DNA of 12,427 nt from Syntrophaceae bacterium (GTDB lineage Bacteria > Desulfobacterota > Syntrophia > Syntrophales > UBA5619). The first letter of the stretch is position 1; each line of letters starts with the position of its first letter. The DNA is taken from NCBI GenBank assembly GCA_919902745.1, contig CAKKRN010000118.1, forward strand, positions 1 to 12,427. The letters run 5' to 3'. Position numbers and translations under genes: made by a program. The notes below the pieces were generated by a model. That model saw only the letters and a program-made list of their open reading frames with translations. It did no database searches and was not told where the DNA came from. This document shows positions 2,866 to 12,189 of the stretch, piece after piece.

Positions 2866-4128
2866 ATGCTGAAGAACATCCTCCGGACATTTTATAAAGA
2901 CGGCCACATGCGACCGCAGGTCTCCAGCTTCATGAAATATATGGGGCCGGGCCTGCTCGTGACCGTCGGCTTCATCGATCCCGGCAACTGGGCTGCCAAT
3001 GTGGCGGCCGGCTCCACGTACGGCTATGCTCTCCTTTGGATGGTGACCCTGGGCACGGCCATGCTCATCCTGCTGCAGCACAACGCCGCGCATCTGGGGA
3101 TCGTTACCGGGTATTGCATTTCCGAGGCGGCAACCCGGCATCTCAAACCGTGGGTATCCCGAACGGTTCTCTCTTCGGCCGTGCTGGCCGCCGCAGCCAC
3201 GGCGATGGCGGAGATTCTCGGGGCGGCCATCGCCCTTCAGATGCTTTTCCGCCTCCCCATCAAGATCGGCGCCCTCCTGACCCTTGTGGTTGTTTTCACG
3301 CTGATTTTAACCAATTCCTATTCCCGTCTGGAGAAATTCATCATCGGCTTTGTCTCGCTGATCGGTCTCGCGTTCATTTTCGAACTCGTCCTGGTGCAGA
3401 TTGCATGGCCAAGGGCGGCCGTCGGCTGGGTCATGCCGCGCATACCCCAGGGATCGATTCCGATCGTCATGAGCGTGCTCGGGGCCGTGGTCATGCCCCA
3501 CAACCTTTTTCTCCATTCGGAGATCATCCAGAGCAGGCAGTGGCATGTCGAGGCTGAGCCGGTCATCGCCCGCCTATTGAAGTATGAGTTTCTGGACACC
3601 CTCTTTTCGATGATCGTCGGCTGGGGGATCAACAGTGCGATGATTCTGGTCGCCGCCGCCGTTTTTTTCCATGCCGGCACGGTCGTCACCGATCTTGTCC
3701 AGGCGGAATCGCTGCTCCGGCCCCTTCTGGGGAATGCCGCCGCCACGGTTTTTGCCGTTGCGCTGCTGTTTGCCGGGGTCGCATCCAGCATCACCGCCGG
3801 CATGGCGGGGGGGAGCATCTTTGCGGGGATGTTCGGTGAACCTTACAACAGCGGGGATCGCCATACACGGCTTGGGATCGGCCTCACGCTGGTGATCGGC
3901 ACGGCGGCGATCTTCGCGGTAGACAATCCCTTCAACGGCCTGATTCTCTCCCAGATCCTGCTAAGCGTCCAGCTCCCCTGGACCATATTCCTGCAGATCC
4001 ATCTGACCTCGTCGAAGAAACTGATGGGGAAACACGCCAACGACCGGACGGGGCGCGTCATGCTCTGGGCCGTGGCCGCCGTCGTCGTGGCGTTGAACGG
4101 AATGCTGCTCTGGAGTTATTTGAAATGA
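2866..4128 (+). CDS. NRAMP-family divalent metal transporter (Mn2+/Fe2+)
   Basis: A 420-residue inner-membrane protein with about 11 hydrophobic segments, the normal length for bacterial NRAMP/MntH proteins. The two metal-site motifs are intact: DPGN in TM1 (residues 38-41) and the A-x-x-M-P-H motif in TM6 (Ala207, Met210-Pro211-His212). The Met is the soft ligand that favours Mn2+/Fe2+ over Mg2+ in this superfamily, so uptake of a transition metal driven by the proton gradient is the likely role. This is family knowledge applied to visible residues. The ATG at 2866 is chosen because the protein reads naturally from it, with a purine-rich AAGAGAAG just upstream. The open frame extends further 5' to 2686, but that part overlaps the transporter gene in another frame and does not look like real protein. 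No MntR or Fur box was recognised. Confidence 0.93.
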   Translation: MLKNILRTFYKDGHMRPQVSSFMKYMGPGLLVTVGFIDPGNWAANVAAGSTYGYALLWMVTLGTAMLILLQHNAAHLGIVTGYCISEAATRHLKPWVSRTVLSSAVLAAAATAMAEILGAAIALQMLFRLPIKIGALLTLVVVFTLILTNSYSRLEKFIIGFVSLIGLAFIFELVLVQIAWPRAAVGWVMPRIPQGSIPIVMSVLGAVVMPHNLFLHSEIIQSRQWHVEAEPVIARLLKYEFLDTLFSMIVGWGINSAMILVAAAVFFHAGTVVTDLVQAESLLRPLLGNAAATVFAVALLFAGVASSITAGMAGGSIFAGMFGEPYNSGDRHTRLGIGLTLVIGTAAIFAVDNPFNGLILSQILLSVQLPWTIFLQIHLTSSKKLMGKHANDRTGRVMLWAVAAVVVALNGMLLWSYLK

Positions 4129-4328
4129 TCTGTCCCGCAAATGAGCCGTCTGATGGTCAGCCTTGACGATTTCTCCGTATAAAGTTCCTCTGCTGCGTTT
4201 GGCCGCCGCACTTCATGTGCGTCACGGATTCGCTTTCCATGTCACCTCGCGCATGATTTTGTTTGAATCGAACTCTCCAGGCGCCTGACCCACATGGAGA
4301 AGGTGAACGTCAGGCAGTCAAAACCCTC
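4129..4328. other. Non-coding stretch downstream of the NRAMP gene
   Basis: No protein-like reading frame was found on either strand. A small inverted repeat is present (GCCTGAC 4283-4289 with GTCAGGC 4309-4315, 19-base loop); it lacks a T-tract and is a weak terminator candidate at best. Nothing else was recognised before the promoter at 4329. Confidence 0.5.
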
Positions 4329-4357
4329 TTGACACACAAGATCCTTCTTCATATACT
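4329..4357 (+). promoter_or_regulatory. Near-consensus sigma70 promoter
   Basis: TTGACA (4329-4334), a 17-base spacer and TATACT (4352-4357) match the sigma70 consensus at 11 of 12 positions with ideal spacing. Transcription would start at about 4364 and run through two gene remnants into the diguanylate cyclase gene at 4895. It is the best promoter match in the left part of the window; activity is inferred, not shown. Confidence 0.7.
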
Positions 4358-4392
4358 CTCACCGCGAAAAAGGAAGTTCTTATCAATGCTTC

Positions 4393-4554
4393 GGCGGCGT
4401 TCCCCACTGCATCTGTCTGGAGACGGCCCACCCGGCCAAATTCCCCGATGAGATCCGGGAACTCCTGGGGATCAATCCCGACCTCCCCCAAAGCATGAAG
4501 GATATCGATGAGCGATCGGGACACCCGGCGTTCCTCTCCGCCGGTTGCGGCTAA
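4393..4554 (+). pseudogene. thrC: C-terminal remnant of threonine synthase
   Basis: Reading the frame 4381, 4384 and so on gives a stretch with ICLETAHPAKFPDEIRELLGI (split as ICLETAHPAKF at about 4411-4443, then PDEIRELLGI), followed by NPDLPQSMKDIDER and a stop at 4552-4554. The AHPAKFP pattern near the C terminus is characteristic of bacterial threonine synthases (PLP enzymes making threonine from O-phosphohomoserine). Everything upstream, including the PLP lysine and the catalytic body of about 400 residues, is missing. The in-frame sequence back to a stop at 4330-4332 is not recognisable as the enzyme. This is therefore a dead scrap about 50 codons long, probably left by a deletion or recombination. 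The last dozen codons match the family poorly. Confidence 0.65.
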
Positions 4555-4642
4555 TTCAGGATCTATCTGAAAGGAAATCTGCAAGTTGCGGATTGAAGAC
4601 GCCGATGGCGACAGGGGGGTCGGCGGGAAAGAAGAGGGATTT

Positions 4643-4882
4643 ATGAAGCTTTTTTTTCGATATTTCATCTTCATCTCGAGTATCTTTCTTCTCACATCCT
4701 TCATGGTTGAAAGCTCCGCTTCCACCAGTTCTGAAAGGAAATTGATCATCACAGGTACGGGATCGAGCATCGGCACCATGCGACGGATGGCCGAGGGTTT
4801 TCAAAAGAAACACCCCAACGTCACTGTCAATGTACTCTCTGAAAGCGGCCATGTGCCTTTGCCGCGAATCACCGGAAAGTGA
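4643..4882 (+). pseudogene. Truncated PstS-like periplasmic substrate-binding protein
   Basis: A 79-residue frame with a good ribosome binding site (GAGGG, 6 bases before the ATG). It opens with a signal peptide (MKLFFRYF followed by a hydrophobic core and SSAS) and then reads like the start of a phosphate-type ABC binding protein: a beta strand, TGTGSSIGTMRRMAEGFQKKHP, then VTVNVLSES. Binding proteins of this class run 250-350 residues; here the frame stops after HVPLPRITGK, so more than two thirds are missing. The final residues do not follow the family pattern (usually a Gly/Ser-rich loop), suggesting a deletion junction at about 4845-4860. The stop lies 12 bases before the diguanylate cyclase start, so translation of this scrap could still couple to it. 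It could alternatively be a small secreted protein in use. Confidence 0.6.
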
Positions 4883-7462: not shown

Positions 7463-8134
7463 TTGAAAACCATATTCATAGAAAACGACCTGTCCAGCTT
7501 CGCAGACTTCCATGATACGGAATGGTTTTCCAGGCTCTTTGCTGCAGTTGACGGATCTGATTTGGAAGCACCAGTCGAGGACTTTGCTGCACATTGGTGG
7601 GGTGCTTCGAGGTCCTTCGTATTGCCGTGGCTGTACGTAAACGGCATCTATGATGCGGTTGACAGCACTGTTCCGATAATCGGGAAATCTAGACAAGATT
7701 TATGGAATGAATACCTTCAAGTGAATGCATTCAATGCATCTTTGTGGAAAATCGCCGAAGGTTCCTTTTGCGCGATCTACTACGCTTACGAGAACCTTCT
7801 CGTCCGAATTCTTGCAGAAACAATTGGTAGGCACATTCGTGTGACAGACAGGGATTTCAACAAAGAGTTAATTGGCGCGTATGGGTCGGCGTTTGCGAAT
7901 CGGTTCTGGACCGCGAATTTCATATCGGTGTCGCGAGAAATTCGCAACTGCATAACGCACAATAGCGGCAAAGCTACTGAGCGGCTACGGGGTATGAAGC
8001 CTCGTCCGATGATTGAAAAAGACGACGTTCTTATTTCAGCAAGCGACGTCAGAGCACTCTATACGCACTTGAAGCCGGTAGCACGCGAAGTGATCGACCA
8101 ATCTCTTCGTAGACTTAATGCTTTTCGGCGATAG
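7463..8134 (+). CDS. Uncharacterised protein with HEPN-like Rx4H motif
   Basis: A 223-residue soluble protein I do not recognise by family. The start must be the TTG at 7463: the frame is closed by a TAG at 7445-7447, no ATG or GTG occurs in the N-terminal part, and GAGAG lies 3-4 bases upstream of it. The most telling feature is EIRNCITHNSG, giving Arg161-Asn-x3-His166, the RN-x3-H form of the Rx4-6H motif that marks the catalytic site of HEPN RNases. It is preceded by mostly helical sequence (ASLWKIAEGSFCAIYYAYENLLVRILAE), also typical of HEPN helices. HEPN proteins are common as toxins and defence effectors. The motif is short, so the assignment is tentative. A/T content is higher than in the genes to the left. 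It is followed 24 bases later by a large hairpin and then a restriction-modification pair. Confidence 0.8.
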   Translation: MKTIFIENDLSSFADFHDTEWFSRLFAAVDGSDLEAPVEDFAAHWWGASRSFVLPWLYVNGIYDAVDSTVPIIGKSRQDLWNEYLQVNAFNASLWKIAEGSFCAIYYAYENLLVRILAETIGRHIRVTDRDFNKELIGAYGSAFANRFWTANFISVSREIRNCITHNSGKATERLRGMKPRPMIEKDDVLISASDVRALYTHLKPVAREVIDQSLRRLNAFRR

Positions 8135-8148
8135 ACGAGGCGAAGGAG

Positions 8149-8216
8149 TTGCTAACACGAGCGTGGAGCCGGACACGAATAAGACTTCGTGTCGCTCACG
8201 CTCCATGTTGAGGCAA
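8149..8216. repeat. Large imperfect hairpin with bulges (attC-like or terminator)
   Basis: GACACGAA (8172-8179) pairs with TTCGTGTC (8186-8193) around a TAAGAC loop. AGC (8167-8169) pairs with GCT (8194-8196), and GAGCGTG (8159-8165) with CACGCTC (8197-8203). Outside these, TTGC and AACA (8149-8157) pair with TGTT and GCAA (8206-8216). The left arm carries unpaired bases at 8166 and 8170-8171. No T-tract follows. The size, the AAC/GTT ends and the bulges on one arm resemble an integron attC site, but the 7-base core boxes do not match consensus. A non-classical terminator for the upstream gene is the simpler reading. Confidence 0.5.
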
Positions 8217-8230
8217 TGACGGATATGCAG

Positions 8231-8260
8231 TTGACGATTATGTGGGTATTATAGTATTAA
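8231..8260 (+). promoter_or_regulatory. Candidate promoter of the restriction nuclease gene
   Basis: TTGACG (8231-8236) is followed 18 bases later by TATTAA (8255-8260); TATAGT at 8250-8255 is another -10 option with too short a spacer. With TATTAA, transcription would begin at about the A of the ATG at 8267. No Shine-Dalgarno sequence precedes the ATG. Confidence 0.45.
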
Positions 8261-8266
8261 ACCAAA

Positions 8267-8869
8267 ATGGCGATACTTCGAAACGCAGTCGATTTGAAAA
8301 AATTCAATCCTGAGGCGGCTTTTCCCTTTCAGTTGAGGCCGCAGGATTTCCAGATGGCAATGCAAGATGTCTATGACTTCTTCTATGATGTCAACTCCAA
8401 CTTGGCTCGAAAGGGGCTGCAGAGACTGGACGATATGTTGCGTCCCGCAATAATGTCAGGTGTGCTGTCGGACATGCTTTCCGCCAGTCTTGCCAAGCAT
8501 TCACGTGTTCTCACCGAAAACCGCTATTTTAACGGTCACCCCGATTTGATTGTACGGGGTGTCTACATTGGCAACGCCGTCAAGGCCGGAACAGAGGGTG
8601 TTGAGATAAAAACTACCAGAAAAGCGGGAGGGGCAGTTGACACCCATGGAGCAAGAGATCAATGGATGTGCGTTTTTGTGTATGACATAGATTCGCAGAC
8701 AGAGCCTGCTTTTGACCGAGACCCCATGTCATTCAGGGAAGTCTATCTCGGGCAGGTAGTAATATCGGATTTCCGGAAGAACCCCCGCAGTGAACTTGGC
8801 ACTCGAACTGCAACCCTTCACAAGGACGGCATTCAGAAACTCAGGGAAAACTGGATATACCGTCTTTAG
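8267..8869 (+). CDS. Type II restriction endonuclease, PD-(D/E)XK fold
   Basis: A 200-residue protein. Its catalytic signature is Pro92-Asp93 (in NGHPDLIVRG) followed 20 residues later by Glu113-Ile-Lys115 (in GVEIKTTRKAGG), the PD...ExK arrangement of the most common restriction nuclease fold, which cuts DNA using Mg2+. It pairs with the DNA methyltransferase gene lying tail to tail: the two stop codons overlap by 4 bases (8866-8869). The nuclease identity is inferred from motif plus partner; the recognition sequence is unknown. The ATG at 8267 is the first start in frame, has no ribosome binding site and sits directly after a candidate -10 box, so the message may be leaderless. No controller (C) protein gene is visible nearby. 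Confidence 0.85.
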   Translation: MAILRNAVDLKKFNPEAAFPFQLRPQDFQMAMQDVYDFFYDVNSNLARKGLQRLDDMLRPAIMSGVLSDMLSASLAKHSRVLTENRYFNGHPDLIVRGVYIGNAVKAGTEGVEIKTTRKAGGAVDTHGARDQWMCVFVYDIDSQTEPAFDRDPMSFREVYLGQVVISDFRKNPRSELGTRTATLHKDGIQKLRENWIYRL

Positions 8870-10014
8870 TGTTGTACGTTTGGCGCGAGGCGGCTCAGCC
8901 TGGGGATGGAGTCGCAGGCCATCTTGAAGAAATGCTCGTCTTTCTCAATTCCGATACTTTCATATCCCACCGCCTCGGCTGCGGCTAACGTCGATCCTGC
9001 TCCAGCAAAAGGATCGAGGATTGTCCCTTTCCCCATAGGAAGCACCGCGTGAACAACCTGCCGGAGGAAAGCCTGTGGCTTCAGACTTGGGTGCGGAGCT
9101 AAGTTCCTTTCTACCTTCCTTGTCGGCGCGGACGATATCACATCTCCGAAGGGTCTTTCCGAAGACGGCCTGCGGAACCCTCCGGTACCCCACTTCCTCA
9201 GGTTATCCTGTACCCTGCCTTCAATCGGTTTTCGATAAACGAGCCACGGCTCCCACATGGAGCGGGGCATTACGCTGATATTAGGGAATTCGTCGTGTGC
9301 AGCCTTAGGGCGATCACCCCCTCGCAGAGTCATGGTAAGGCGAATAATCTCACCTCGTCGTTCCAGACCGGCATCCGATAACGACCCAGAAACTATATAT
9401 GATAACAGTGGATTGGATGCAACTACAACATGTGCACCGGGGACTATCTTCGGTAAGAGTAATCTTGCCCAATTCAAAAAAAACATTCTCACGTCCTTGA
9501 GTTGCTGGGCGCTCAACGTGGTGAATCTTGGAAGGGGACTTCTTGTGTGCCCATCGAAAGACGGCGGGATTCGCCAAACGCCACCCTTCCCATTTCGTAG
9601 CTTATTCTGTTGTTCGGCTGAGTACTCGTACAGGCCGTAAGGTGGGTCAGTAACAACAGCTTGAAAGCTGTTATCCTCTTGTTGTTCTATCCAATCGAAG
9701 CAGTCAGCATGGAAAATCGTAGACTTACCAAATTTCACGGGGTCTCGCCAAATCTGCGTCTCAAAAAGGTTCCGCTGAGCGCTTCGGGCAGCCACAGTCT
9801 GCACGGTATAGACTCCGCGAGTCTCGCGGACAAATAAATCTGGCGTGTTAAGGCGGAGATACGAACGAACCGATGATGTTGGCGTGGGTCCAATCATTTG
9901 ACCTACACGATTCTCAATTTCCTTGACAGAAAGAGGGCGTGAGGTTAACGATAAAACATGAACAATTGCATCCCTCACTTGTCCGGGAGCATTTCTGAGT
10001 TGTTCTTTAGCCAT
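8866..10014 (-). CDS. Site-specific adenine DNA methyltransferase, beta class, with N-terminal HTH
   Basis: A 382-residue protein that should methylate DNA with S-adenosylmethionine. Motif IV DPPY (residues 123-126, in VVTDPPYGLYEY) precedes motif I DPFAGAGST (334-342), with a target-recognition stretch between them: the beta-class order. DPPY favours N6-adenine as the product, though N4-cytosine cannot be fully excluded. Residues about 1-80 form a separate segment (VRDAIVHVLSLTSRPLSVKEI, then SSVRSYLRLNTPDLFVRETRGVYTV) that looks like a winged-helix or HARE-HTH domain, as found in some restriction-modification proteins; it may add DNA contacts or bind the gene's own promoter. It protects host DNA from the convergent nuclease gene. 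The ATG at 10014 has no Shine-Dalgarno and lies 8 bases after a -10 box, implying a leaderless mRNA. Confidence 0.93.
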   Translation of the reverse strand: MAKEQLRNAPGQVRDAIVHVLSLTSRPLSVKEIENRVGQMIGPTPTSSVRSYLRLNTPDLFVRETRGVYTVQTVAARSAQRNLFETQIWRDPVKFGKSTIFHADCFDWIEQQEDNSFQAVVTDPPYGLYEYSAEQQNKLRNGKGGVWRIPPSFDGHTRSPLPRFTTLSAQQLKDVRMFFLNWARLLLPKIVPGAHVVVASNPLLSYIVSGSLSDAGLERRGEIIRLTMTLRGGDRPKAAHDEFPNISVMPRSMWEPWLVYRKPIEGRVQDNLRKWGTGGFRRPSSERPFGDVISSAPTRKVERNLAPHPSLKPQAFLRQVVHAVLPMGKGTILDPFAGAGSTLAAAEAVGYESIGIEKDEHFFKMACDSIPRLSRLAPNVQH

Positions 10015-10022
10015 GGCTAATG

Positions 10023-10051
10023 GTATTAGACGTCTCGACGTCTTTTGTCAA
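10023..10051 (-). promoter_or_regulatory. Methyltransferase promoter with operator-like repeat in its spacer
   Basis: Read on the minus strand: TTGACA (10051-10046), a 17-base spacer, then TAATAC (10028-10023), a strong sigma70 match. The spacer contains GACGTC twice (10029-10034 and 10037-10042); together they form the inverted repeat AGACGT...ACGTCT (10028-10043). Transcription should start at about 10015-10017, only 0-2 bases before the ATG. A protein bound in the spacer, or methylation of GACGTC, would directly affect RNA polymerase. Confidence 0.72.
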
Positions 10052-10114
10052 GCAGTTTTTTGAGGGAAAAAGGTACATGCCCCAACAAGGCAACTTGCGT
10101 CTTAGCGCACGCCT

Positions 10115-11035
10115 ATGAATCTTCCAAAGCATCAGCACTGGGTTCCCCAATTTTATCTTCGGCACTTTGCTACGCCCGAAACCCGGGGTAACGAAGATGC
10201 GCAGGTGTGGATCTTCTCGAAGGAGGAAGCGGACGGCGACGAAACCTTGACGAACGTCAGGAATGTCTGCGGAAAGAGGTACCTTTACACCCCGTTCGAC
10301 GAATCCGGAGAACGCGTTTGGAACTTTGAGAAGAAGCTTGACGGTCTCGAAACAACAATGGGGCTGATTTGGCCCGATCTCGCGAATGGTTTTATTGACA
10401 TCGGCAATTCGACTCTACGCAAGGGCGTTTCGCTCTTCGTGGCAGTGATGCACCTACGGAACCCAGAGGTCAGATGGTTTGTAGAACATTTGCACCACCG
10501 CTTTGTGGAGGCTTACGAAGAGATGCCTATCAGGCCAGACGGGAATCCGGACGTATGCTCAATCGAAGTCGATGGAACGACCTACCCATTCGATCCAAGT
10601 GACTGGAATGAATATCGAGCATGGGGTAAAAACGATCACGACCGCTTCTTTGTCCATGTTATCGAGTCTGAAGCAGTGCGCATCGCGGAACTTCTTATGC
10701 GAAAGCGCTGGTCTATCGTCTTTTCAGAAGTGGATGTATTCGTCACATCCGATAGGCCAGTGGTGCTACAGCACCAATCGGGAGAGATGTTTGGTTTTGG
10801 TACACAGAACGCAATAGTCACATTTCCTCTGTCACCGAGGAGGCTTCTGGTAATGGACGACTTGCACGAGGAACCAGCCAATCAGTACTACCCGCTCAAG
10901 CGGTCAAACGTAGGCTCCTTCAATCAAAATATCTGGAGCAACGGCAGCCGTTTTATGATCACGGGTCGTCCAGTTCACGAAGTGCTCGCTGAGATACTGG
11001 CGTGGGCAGACGTACATCATAGCAGAGGCGCATAA
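10115..11035 (+). CDS. DUF4238 domain-containing protein
   Basis: A 306-residue soluble protein. The opening LPKHQHWVPQFYLRHFA is the hallmark start of the DUF4238 family (H-x-VPQFYL-x-xFA), and the later FVTSDRPVVLQ matches the family's second conserved patch (SDxPV). The family's biochemical function is not established; members are frequent in accessory and defence regions, which fits the restriction-modification genes next door. It is transcribed away from the methyltransferase gene, 100 bases apart. The ATG at 10115 lacks a clear ribosome binding site and I could not find a good promoter in the intergenic stretch. A hairpin lies 7 bases past its stop. Confidence 0.88.
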   Translation: MNLPKHQHWVPQFYLRHFATPETRGNEDAQVWIFSKEEADGDETLTNVRNVCGKRYLYTPFDESGERVWNFEKKLDGLETTMGLIWPDLANGFIDIGNSTLRKGVSLFVAVMHLRNPEVRWFVEHLHHRFVEAYEEMPIRPDGNPDVCSIEVDGTTYPFDPSDWNEYRAWGKNDHDRFFVHVIESEAVRIAELLMRKRWSIVFSEVDVFVTSDRPVVLQHQSGEMFGFGTQNAIVTFPLSPRRLLVMDDLHEEPANQYYPLKRSNVGSFNQNIWSNGSRFMITGRPVHEVLAEILAWADVHHSRGA

Positions 11036-11042
11036 CAAATAA

Positions 11043-11075
11043 GGATTGAGGCGATGCGGAGCTTCGTTTCAATCC
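11043..11075 (+). terminator. Hairpin after the DUF4238 gene, possible terminator
   Basis: GGATTGAGGCGA (11043-11054) pairs with TCGTTTCAATCC (11064-11075): 12 pairs including two G-U, with a 9-base loop. It begins 7 bases after the stop codon. No T-tract follows, so a factor-dependent end or mRNA 3' protection is as likely as intrinsic termination. Confidence 0.4.
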
Positions 11076-11268
11076 CGGGTTCAAGGTAAGCCGGTGGTTT
11101 AAGGGCAATGCTTCGAGAGGGAACTGGTCGGGCTGATGAGAGATGATCATTTTCCCATCCCCAAAAGGGGCGATTTGACGTTTTCATGACAAGGGCCAGG
11201 AGACGTTTTAGAGAGAGCCCGATTGCACTGCGGGCCACGGCTCAACCCCGCGTTTGCCGCGAAATGAC
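11076..11268. other. Non-coding stretch between the DUF4238 gene and the toxin-antitoxin operon
   Basis: About 190 bases with no convincing gene. A minus-strand frame starting at 11150 has a GGGA-type ribosome binding site and runs about 60 codons back into the DUF4238 gene, but shows no recognisable motif. No tRNA could be folded from the GGTTCAAGG-like stretch at about 11079. Confidence 0.4.
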
Positions 11269-11338
11269 TTGACATCACAATAACGTTGGCGTACCGTATG
11301 TCGTACGATAAGGAGATTGAAAAGAATGACAACGTTAT
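11269..11338 (+). promoter_or_regulatory. Toxin-antitoxin promoter/operator region
   Basis: TTGACA at 11269-11274 is a perfect -35 box; the -10 at 17 bp spacing (TACCGT, 11292-11297) is weak. An inverted repeat CGTAC (11290-11294) with GTACG (11303-11307) covers this -10 region. A second one, ATAACGTTG (11280-11288) with CAACGTTAT (11330-11338), brackets the ribosome binding site and antitoxin start. Such repeats are the usual binding sites for antitoxin or toxin-antitoxin autorepression. AAGGAG at 11310-11315 is the ribosome binding site. Confidence 0.5.
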
Positions 11339-11568
11339 CGGCATCAGAGGCAAGAAAACGGCTGTACAATCTGGTTGACGAGGTAAAGGAGACACACGTA
11401 CCGGTCCAGATCGTAGGAAAGAGAAGTTCAGCCGTTCTTGTTTCCGAGGAGGACTGGAGGGCAATAGAAGAGACCTTATATCTCCTGTCGATACCAGGGA
11501 TGCGGGAATCTATCAAGAAGGGCCTCAAAATCCCCGTAGAAAAGTGCGATGAGGCGCCCGGATGGTGA
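11326..11568 (+). CDS. Type II antitoxin, Phd/YefM family
   Basis: An 80-residue antitoxin. The N-terminal TTLSASEARKRLYNLVDEV is the typical Phd/YefM dimer and DNA-binding start, followed by VPVQIVGKRSSAVLVSEEDWRAIEETLYLL, the conserved strand-helix unit (read as VPVQIVGKRSSAVLVSEEDW then RAIEETLYLL). The C-terminal part should be flexible and wrap the toxin. It neutralises the YoeB-like toxin encoded next and, as in the family, should repress its own promoter alone and more strongly with toxin. The ATG at 11326 has AAGGAG 10 bases upstream; the in-frame TTG at 11317 lies only one base after that site and is rejected. It overlaps the toxin gene by 7 bases, giving translational coupling. Confidence 0.93.
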   Translation: MTTLSASEARKRLYNLVDEVKETHVPVQIVGKRSSAVLVSEEDWRAIEETLYLLSIPGMRESIKKGLKIPVEKCDEAPGW

Positions 11569-11828
11569 GTTGGCGTCTGGTTTTCACAAAGCAGGCAAAA
11601 AGAGATGCGAAGGAAATAGCACAATCCGGCTTTAAACCTCAGGCCGGTCGCCTGTTGGACTTACTAAAGGAAGACCCTTACCGGAATCCCCCGCCATATG
11701 AGAAGCTCGTGGGAGATCTTTCCGGCGCCTATTCCCGAAGAATCAACATACAGCACCGCCTGGTCTACCAAGTTCTCGATGACATCAAGACGGTGAAAGT
11801 TATCCGGATGTGGACGCACTATGAATAG
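11562..11828 (+). CDS. Type II toxin, YoeB/Txe family mRNA interferase
   Basis: An 88-residue toxin of the RelE superfamily, YoeB/Txe branch, which cuts mRNA in the ribosome A site. Family features visible: the start WRLVFTKQAKRDAKEI, the segment NPPPYEKLVGDLSGAYSRRINIQHRLVYQV, and the C terminus VIRMWTHYE. The Glu of PYEKL, the Arg of the RRINIQHR stretch and the terminal His-Tyr are the catalytic positions of the family and all are present, so it looks active. The ATG at 11562 overlaps the antitoxin's end by 7 bases, the classic arrangement. No other partner is nearby. The pair may stabilise the accessory block to its left, which is inference. Confidence 0.95.
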   Translation: MVSWRLVFTKQAKRDAKEIAQSGFKPQAGRLLDLLKEDPYRNPPPYEKLVGDLSGAYSRRINIQHRLVYQVLDDIKTVKVIRMWTHYE

Positions 11829-11837
11829 CGATTATAA

Positions 11838-11910
11838 CAGAACGTCCACAATCCCGACTTTAATTATGGCGAATTCGCCACAATTAGAAGTCAGGCAGGA
11901 CTCAACAGCA
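11838..11910 (+). pseudogene. Remnant of a KilA-N domain (phage-type) protein
   Basis: Directly after a stop at 11835-11837 the frame reads VHNPDFNYGEFATIRSQAGLNS (given here in parts: VHNPDFNYGEF, ATIRSQAGLNS). The NPxFNxxEFxxIRxxAGxNSF pattern is the core of KilA-N domains of phage antirepressor-like proteins, which are DNA-binding. Only about 24 codons fit; the start and the rest of the domain are missing, and the following codons (TLIPEYVKDYVSFNEMA) stay open but do not match. It is a scrap lying 10 bases after the toxin stop. The identification rests on a short stretch and is moderate. Confidence 0.5.
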
Positions 11911-11991
11911 CCCTGATTCCCGAATACGTCAAGGATTACGTTTCTTTTAACGAGATGGCTTTGACGGTGATCTATGGTAGAGGACGGACCC

Positions 11992-12189
11992 ATGAGCGGC
12001 AACAATCGATCCGACATCGCACCCGGCATGCGGGTGAGAGTGGTCCGGAAAGAGGATCAGCGAAGCGGCGCCCTCACGGAAGGGGTCGTCCGTGATCTGC
12101 TAACGAAATCGCCCCACCACCCCCACGGCATCAAGGTGCGCCTGGAGGGCGGCATCGTCGGCCGGGTGAAAGAGATTTTGGGTGTCTGA
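11992..12189 (+). CDS. YwbE family protein
   Basis: A 65-residue protein of the YwbE (DUF2196) family, full length for the family. Hallmarks: NRSDIAPGMRVRVVRKEDQRSG at the start, the LTEGVVRDLLTKSPHHPHGIKV stretch (HPHGIKVRL is the signature), and the GRVKEIL end. The fold is a small beta-barrel, possibly nucleic-acid binding; the function is not established. The ATG at 11992 has AGAGGA 7 bases upstream. An in-frame ATG at 11974 would add six residues and has no ribosome binding site. It stands alone on the + strand between a phage-gene scrap and an unrecognised frame. Confidence 0.9.
   Translation: MSGNNRSDIAPGMRVRVVRKEDQRSGALTEGVVRDLLTKSPHHPHGIKVRLEGGIVGRVKEILGV

Follow-up and report, generated by a model that had tools for sequence, protein, structure and literature searches.

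The locus and its genes

The window analysed here, a stretch of 12,427 nucleotides from a Syntrophaceae bacterium, corresponds to contig 118 of a genome that is 85.5% complete. It carries a DNA methyltransferase gene on the minus strand and, overlapping it tail to tail (8267-8869 plus versus 8866-10014 minus), an ORF for a convergent partner. The features of this locus are as follows.

10046..10051, minus: -35 element TTGACA, read directly; TTGAC is conserved in related promoters
10037..10042, minus: operator half-site 1, GACGTC, read directly; invariant in 46 non-redundant operators
10035..10036, minus: 2-bp operator centre, GA here, mostly pyrimidine-purine in relatives
10029..10034, minus: operator half-site 2, GACGTC, read directly; invariant in the 46 operators
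10023..10028, minus: -10 element TAATAC, a weak TATAAT match; the family form is TAnnnT
10015..10022, minus: 8-nt gap from the -10 element to the ATG, read directly
8866..10014, minus: 382-aa beta-class amino DNA methyltransferase (N6_N4_Mtase), by Pfam, PADLOC and fold match
9799..10014, minus: predicted N-terminal winged helix (wHTH), residues 1-72, by AlphaFold2 model and co-occurrence
8267..8869, plus: 200-aa convergent partner, a putative restriction enzyme, by conserved motif and weak fold match

The methyltransferase matches Pfam PF01555 (N6_N4_Mtase, 1.3e-14), its residues 99-376 match the type II methyltransferase profile MTase_II of PADLOC (2.5e-104), and its fold matches that of CcrM (6pbd, E 8.5e-13); CcrM, a rotifer N4-cytosine enzyme and M1.HpyAVI are high-ranking solved fold relatives, and PvuII is matched as well. 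Residues 12-71 are predicted to form a winged helix, with helices at 12-22, 30-41 and 46-56 and a hairpin at 61-71 in the AlphaFold2 model, where the 10-residue pLDDT means are 69-82 for residues 11-70. No Pfam family matches this domain above the cut-off, and it does not qualify as HARE-HTH (PF05066), for which the best E value was 0.093, with matches in 2 of 31 members. A Rok winged helix match (1.9e-5, below Pfam's cut-off) was seen for one relative only, L100.

The partner has a PD-(D/E)xK-like motif, D93 ... E113-x-K115 (GHPDL...VEIKTTR), and its model has a pLDDT of 84. In a Foldseek fold search EcoRV was the best match (E 6.6e-3, prob 0.80), and NaeI was also found (E 6.7e-2, prob 0.94); there was no match in Pfam and nothing credible in NCBIfam or among PDB sequences. 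We propose that the 200-aa partner is a restriction enzyme, a putative nuclease that is weakly EcoRV-like. It has a match in 57 of 66 related loci (7 of the matches are shorter than 100 residues), 56 of them convergent, and the pairing of a methyltransferase with a putative nuclease gene is that of a type II restriction-modification system. In L028, a Mycobacterium avium plasmid, the nuclease-like partner (3958-4881, ~35% identity) is encoded on the same strand as the methyltransferase, and its C-terminus is extended by ~100 residues. The methyltransferase and nuclease matches span most of the 2150-bp Raoultella plasmid record NZ_CP104462.1.

Other genes are close by. A DUF4238 protein (2.8e-31; 10115-11035, plus), which also matches the PADLOC DUF4238 model weakly, is encoded divergently and starts ~60 bp from the methyltransferase promoter, and a Phd/YefM antitoxin and Txe/YoeB toxin pair (11317-11828, plus) is found near the restriction-modification genes. 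Upstream of the nuclease gene lies a 223-aa ORF (7463-8134, plus) with a very weak RTasHEPN match (0.017).

The promoter and its GACGTC pair

Ahead of the methyltransferase ATG at 10014 on the minus strand, the 17-nt spacer between the -35 and -10 elements (10029-10045, minus) reads AAAGACGTCGAGACGTC, laid out as AAA-GACGTC-GA-GACGTC. The 14-bp operator GACGTC-GA-GACGTC (10029-10042) thus sits wholly inside the spacer and abuts the -10 element. The earlier note on this DNA had described TTGACA-17-TAATAC with GACGTC at 10029-10034 and 10037-10042, and direct reading gives the same coordinates; its statement that the only other GACGTC of the window is at 8045 also agrees with our count of three (8045, 10029, and 10037). 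This number is at chance level (3 seen versus 3.44 expected), but at the observed frequency simple arithmetic predicts only ~0.001 GACGTC pairs with a 2-bp gap in the window, and the unusual feature is such a pair in a promoter spacer, not the number of sites.

The call of a promoter made in that note stands by comparison, TTGAC and TAnnnT being conserved in relatives at the corresponding places, but not by any quality of TAATAC as a consensus -10 element, which agrees with TATAAT at only 3 of 6 positions. The promoter is absent from the list returned by a consensus promoter scan because that scan demands the final T. The 8-nt gap between the -10 element and the ATG points to a leaderless or nearly leaderless transcript, and we regard the methyltransferase mRNA as probably leaderless or very short-leadered. 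Even allowing up to 3 mismatches, the window's own genome contains no second copy of the 29-bp promoter-plus-operator, and no operator pair is found at the start of the partner gene.

The operator goes with the winged helix

The earlier note had recommended searching related methyltransferase promoters for the repeat. Among loci fetched by protein similarity, an exact GACGTC-NN-GACGTC is present upstream in 48 of 48 relatives that have the wHTH and in 0 of 21 that do not, a distribution that favours the note's suggestion of the methyltransferase's N-terminal HTH as the binder of the repeat. The bulk of this count comes from 66 loci with 4 repeats dropped (comparisons 1 to 3 below), where the operator accompanies 45/45 wHTH-bearing and 0/17 wHTH-less members (Fisher p 1.4e-15, kinship ignored). 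The wHTH was scored in these loci as a tblastn match on the same strand with E <=1e-4, and the operator was called where the 600 bp preceding the catalytic match contained an exact pair. Further searches added three new wHTH-bearing loci, all with the operator (L102, L104, and L112), and four wHTH-less loci without it (L105-L108); for the set L102-L113 both calls were read off printed positions, and repeats were left out (L103=L017, L110=L024, L111=L007, and L109=L104).

Comparison 1 covered 24 loci of named genomes, from several phyla by record title, with identities of 64-83%; the match in L025 is partial and covers 129 residues. The pair lies just upstream of the gene in 23 of the 24. The exception is L020, whose match starts at residue 81; its wHTH part is absent and its 5' end is replaced. 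In comparison 2, 27 plasmid and 27 phage records matched and 8 of the 54 were fetched; the pair is present in 7/7 plasmid loci and absent from the Halorubrum virus relative, which is without the wHTH. The wHTH-bearing plasmid relatives extend down to ~56% protein identity. Comparison 3 drew on 301 genomes of one phylum, 41 of which matched (the 30 best matches were fetched and 11 lower-scoring genomes left out), and on 297 genomes of the window's own phylum, 5 of which matched and were all fetched, the window's own locus (L078) being left out of the counts. A match was found in 7 of 265 further genomes and, with the wHTH alone as the query, in 4 of 259; together these searches gave 12 loci. 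One of them, L113, is counted in neither group: it has a 36-residue wHTH-like match but lacks both the methyltransferase and the operator. By tblastn (E 3.4e-5) this match passes the wHTH cut-off, but with a search E value of 0.006 and an ATPase-like ORF on the opposite strand we take it as a chance match.

In comparison 4 the 78-aa wHTH alone was searched against the 301 genomes and gave 18 matches, 17 of them already known. The eighteenth was L100, a separate 89-codon wHTH frame near a contig end (37% identity, E 2.8e-4), preceded by GACGTC-TA-GACGTC, which starts 30 nt ahead of the ATG. The frame is followed by an overlapping ORF that runs for 29 residues to the contig end and begins with another wHTH-like stretch, so that the operator may belong to a two-wHTH methyltransferase operon. 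Because of this cut ORF with its wHTH-like start, L100 is weaker as independent evidence. In plasmids the wHTH is found in 20 records, identical to the 20 listed for the methyltransferase; the wHTH alone has no match in phage records, and there is no near copy of the plasmid version in E. coli genomes.

The fused loci are ambiguous in one respect, because the operator adjoins the coding part for the wHTH and one deletion could remove both. The co-loss of operator and wHTH in L020 seems to be a case of this kind, a replacement of the 5' end. The split loci make the better argument: there the operator is found beside the wHTH ORF, away from the catalytic part. In the actinobacterial plasmids L028-L030 the wHTH is an ORF of its own, whose stop codon starts 1-16 nt past the initial nucleotide of the methyltransferase gene, and in L064 a shifted frame likewise puts it out of frame with the catalytic part. 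In all four the operator precedes the wHTH ORF and begins 226-300 bp ahead of the methyltransferase start or the catalytic match. The operator is also kept at four wHTH-bearing loci (L014, L031, L052, and L057) where 1.5 kb or more of downstream sequence contains no match to the nuclease.

When the operator label is mapped onto a tree of 68 catalytic domains, 4 changes are required, compared to a mean of 17.5 for shuffled labels (0 of 500 shuffles were as low). Three members without the operator, L020, L065, and L081, fall inside the operator-bearing clade, the latter two at weakly supported forks.

Operator conservation and rarity

The 46 non-redundant operators include three fetched by pattern (L036, L037, and L038), two of which, L037 and L038, were also retrieved by protein similarity (L080 and L079, respectively). 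No variation is seen at any of the 12 GACGTC positions. TTGAC carries ~0.9-1.2 bits per position, and bases outside the operator, -35 and -10 elements carry at most ~0.55 bits. The centre is C19/T24/G3 at position 6 and A23/G13/C9/T1 at position 7, and A and T are frequent in the operator flanks. Of 48 related loci, 33 have TAnnnT in the -10 position, and in 39 the distance between the operator's first base and a start codon is 22-32 nt, taking the start nearest the aligned one. At the level of sequence, then, comparison establishes the promoter, the operator, the invariance of the operator and its tie to the wHTH. Chance, or mere relatedness of the upstream regions, might be entertained on the grounds that GACGTC is no more frequent in the window than expected, but the surrounding bases vary while the 12 operator positions stay fixed, across proteins down to ~56% identity, and we give this explanation practically no credence.

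A different division of the site is conceivable, in which each GACGTC is bound by its own wHTH dimer, two side by side, so that the palindromes are uninformative about the methylation target. Such an arrangement has a parallel in RptR, the repressor of a type I locus, which acts through 6-bp palindromes and requires two of them to be intact (PMC12255303, in part); the window operator likewise consists of two 6-bp palindromes. The fixed 2-bp gap, a centre that is mostly pyrimidine-purine and the A and T often present in the flanks look instead like one two-fold operator, and we consider separate dimers unlikely. RptR resembles the present case further in that its repeated palindromes lie over a promoter and are conserved across diverse bacteria, but it differs in being a stand-alone alpha-helical repressor that acts on three direct repeats of TAGCTA in type I systems (PMC12255303, in part).

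The operator is also rare. A pattern-first search with TTGACNNNNGACGTCNNGACGTC matched 3 of 297 genomes, the window's own included, in all three before this methyltransferase gene. In viral contigs there were 3 matches, 1 of them at this gene; the others, L034 and L035, have no match to it. In six carrier genomes the pair occurs 1-2 times per genome, with 2 further pairs versus 2 control pairs, and therefore looks local. A regulon is not supported, since the pair occurs elsewhere in these genomes at about the control rate.

ACGT-core palindromes are known factor sites in other organisms, which would suit a host transcription factor, rather than the methyltransferase, as the user of the GACGTC sites. 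The pair, however, tracks the wHTH and not the host: it is found in several phyla and on plasmids, it is absent from the wHTH-less relatives sampled in the same phyla, and it is rare in the six carrier genomes. A host factor is accordingly a very improbable user of the sites.

Proposed mechanism

When a two-fold site in a promoter spacer travels with a DNA-binding domain that the gene itself encodes, the simplest reading is an autorepressor operator. On this comparative evidence the two GACGTC sites probably constitute one operator for the methyltransferase's own wHTH, through which expression would be capped by negative feedback. As the enzyme accumulates, two copies or a dimer would dock via the wHTH on GACGTC-NN-GACGTC and exclude RNA polymerase from the methyltransferase's own, probably leaderless, promoter; the methyltransferase level would thereby be capped in a type II system with convergent genes. 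If GACGTC is also the methylation target, the methylation state of the operator would enter the feedback. Direct binding by the wHTH, repression over activation and a leaderless start are what we infer here: the location of the operator inside the -35/-10 spacer fits steric repression, although its position alone may also be compatible with activation. A search of open-licence papers found no description of a GACGTC-NN-GACGTC operator.

If correct, this would be a widespread form of self-regulation of restriction-modification that is independent of C proteins and occurs in the amino-methyltransferase class, the wHTH-bearing relatives with the operator coming from several bacterial phyla. The invariant pair predicts the binding site of the wHTH and suggests a methylation target.

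Is GACGTC also the methylation target?

GACGTC could also be the system's own methylation and restriction site, with the promoter controlled by methylation of the sites, alone or through readout by the wHTH; methylated spacer sites would lower transcription or change wHTH affinity, by a logic like that of CfrBI, AhdI and LlaDII or of EcoRII. This possibility overlaps with the wHTH operator if the wHTH is the reader, and we place it not far short of an even chance. Each half-site is a perfect palindrome, invariant in 46 operators, as expected of a recognition site, and bacterial wHTH-bearing and archaeal wHTH-less members share a strongly conserved region between their catalytic motifs. The weakly EcoRV-like fold of the putative nuclease suits a blunt or 3'-overhang cutter; the GACGTC enzymes ZraI and AatII are such cutters. 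Among 120 relatives listed for the Halorubrum virus enzyme, many of those with an organism name are haloarchaeal, and in Halobacterium sp. NMX12-1 a GACGTC motif, m4C or m6A, is assigned to ABSL23_01420 (PMC11556058, in part), a possible lead to the target. In Natrinema the GACGTC mark is m5C, the product of another enzyme class (PMC12160562, in part). The portions of PMC10609329, PMC6471742, PMC4390886, PMC7911831 and PMC3874152 that were consulted yielded nothing on the methylation target of this family.

Several observations point the other way. The wHTH-less relatives, in which the specificity region is conserved, have the GACGTC pair upstream in 0 of 21 loci. GACGTC is not depleted in 24 wHTH-bearing carriers versus 36 non-carriers (median log2 GACGTC/CACGTC -0.05 versus 0.20, p 0.84), and the window's own genome contains 481 GACGTC versus 405 CTGCAG. 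The 20 wHTH-less carriers are depleted in GACGTC (-1.54, p 0.0024), but this is unspecific because the control CTGCAG is also depleted. The test covered 80 genomes of mixed phyla, with kinship ignored; 7 of the 24 wHTH-bearing and 2 of the 20 wHTH-less carriers are from outside the G297 phylum sample, and the 36 non-carriers were hand-picked from the no-match genomes of the 301-genome search, four of them having extremely few GACGTC. With no depletion in one group and unspecific depletion in the other, we set genomic GACGTC avoidance aside as a test of the target. The strong depletion of both GACGTC and CTGCAG in several wHTH-less carriers such as G314, G334, and G497 looks like general palindrome avoidance.

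That GACGTC is also the methylation target of this enzyme is thus given somewhat below even odds. The more specific proposal, that two copies of the methyltransferase's own target make up the operator and that the wHTH reads their methylation state, is tentative and rather more doubtful. Were it true, the methyltransferase would sense genome modification at its own promoter, as a self-measuring thermostat, and a 14-bp sensor would be conserved across several bacterial phyla.

Comparison with known systems

The self-repression proposed here has counterparts in M.SsoII, M.Ecl18kI and M.EcoRII, which share with the window enzyme a ~70-residue N-terminal DNA-binding region (here predicted) and a two-fold site in the methyltransferase promoter that mediates self-repression (here proposed). 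The window has both the fused N-terminal region, in the form of the predicted winged helix at residues 12-71, and the two-fold operator over the methyltransferase promoter. The enzyme class is different: EcoRII is a C5-cytosine enzyme and that of the window is an N6_N4_Mtase. SsoII is also a C5-cytosine enzyme, with a regulatory site, AGGACAAATTGTCCT, that differs from its methylation site CCNGG and sits in the intergenic region of its two genes, as described in the available part of PMC3978073; the SsoII and Ecl18kI methyltransferases work as autorepressors (PMC3978073 and PMC12707154, both in part). Unlike SsoII, the window has a beta-class amino-methyltransferase, a winged helix, a convergent nuclease gene and an operator that lies within the promoter spacer and is possibly made of target sites.

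CfrBI, AhdI and LlaDII also have sites in the methyltransferase promoter and feedback on the methyltransferase gene, according to the parts of PMC12707154 and PMC3978073 consulted, but in the window family the site is linked to the wHTH rather than to the catalytic domain. Overlapping, divergent promoters like those of CfrBI are not found here, where the genes converge tail to tail, as in 56 of 66 related loci. The analogy to CfrBI and SsoII drawn in the earlier note is therefore apt as to logic but does not extend to the defining features of either family. Most likely, we are dealing with SsoII/EcoRII-type logic in another enzyme class.

There is also some likeness to C proteins. The split loci L028-L030, and L100 in part, have a small DNA-binding ORF behind the operator, and this wHTH ORF comes before the methyltransferase or a cut ORF, an order somewhat reminiscent of a C gene ahead of its nuclease. 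C proteins are Xre-family HTH proteins (PMC3978073, in part), unlike the predicted winged helix, which adjoins or is fused to the methyltransferase. The note had reported no C-protein gene nearby, and indeed a scan of the 7 ORFs from 7463 to 12189 shows neither a C protein nor any separate Xre-family controller gene.

Possible regulator exchange in relatives

Some wHTH-less relatives have other candidate regulators. In L066 (3846 bp; minus, 2341-2712) an Xre-type HTH (HTH_31, 6.5e-17) is found in frame before the methyltransferase. Phd/YefM-like ORFs lie immediately upstream of or overlap the wHTH-less methyltransferase genes of L070 (2394-2810, minus; 5.3e-8) and L071 (1197-1469, plus; 8.9e-11), possibly as antitoxin-type regulators of the restriction-modification system, and L074 has an 11-bp inverted repeat upstream. 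These four loci suggest that regulators have been exchanged in front of one enzyme family. The natural variants, with the wHTH fused, split, replaced by an Xre HTH or with a Phd-like ORF upstream, make such exchange testable. The Microvirga plasmid locus L031 has a second, divergent wHTH-like stretch (2105-2308, minus; 42.6% over 68 residues), in an open frame beside the methyltransferase gene where no gene is listed.
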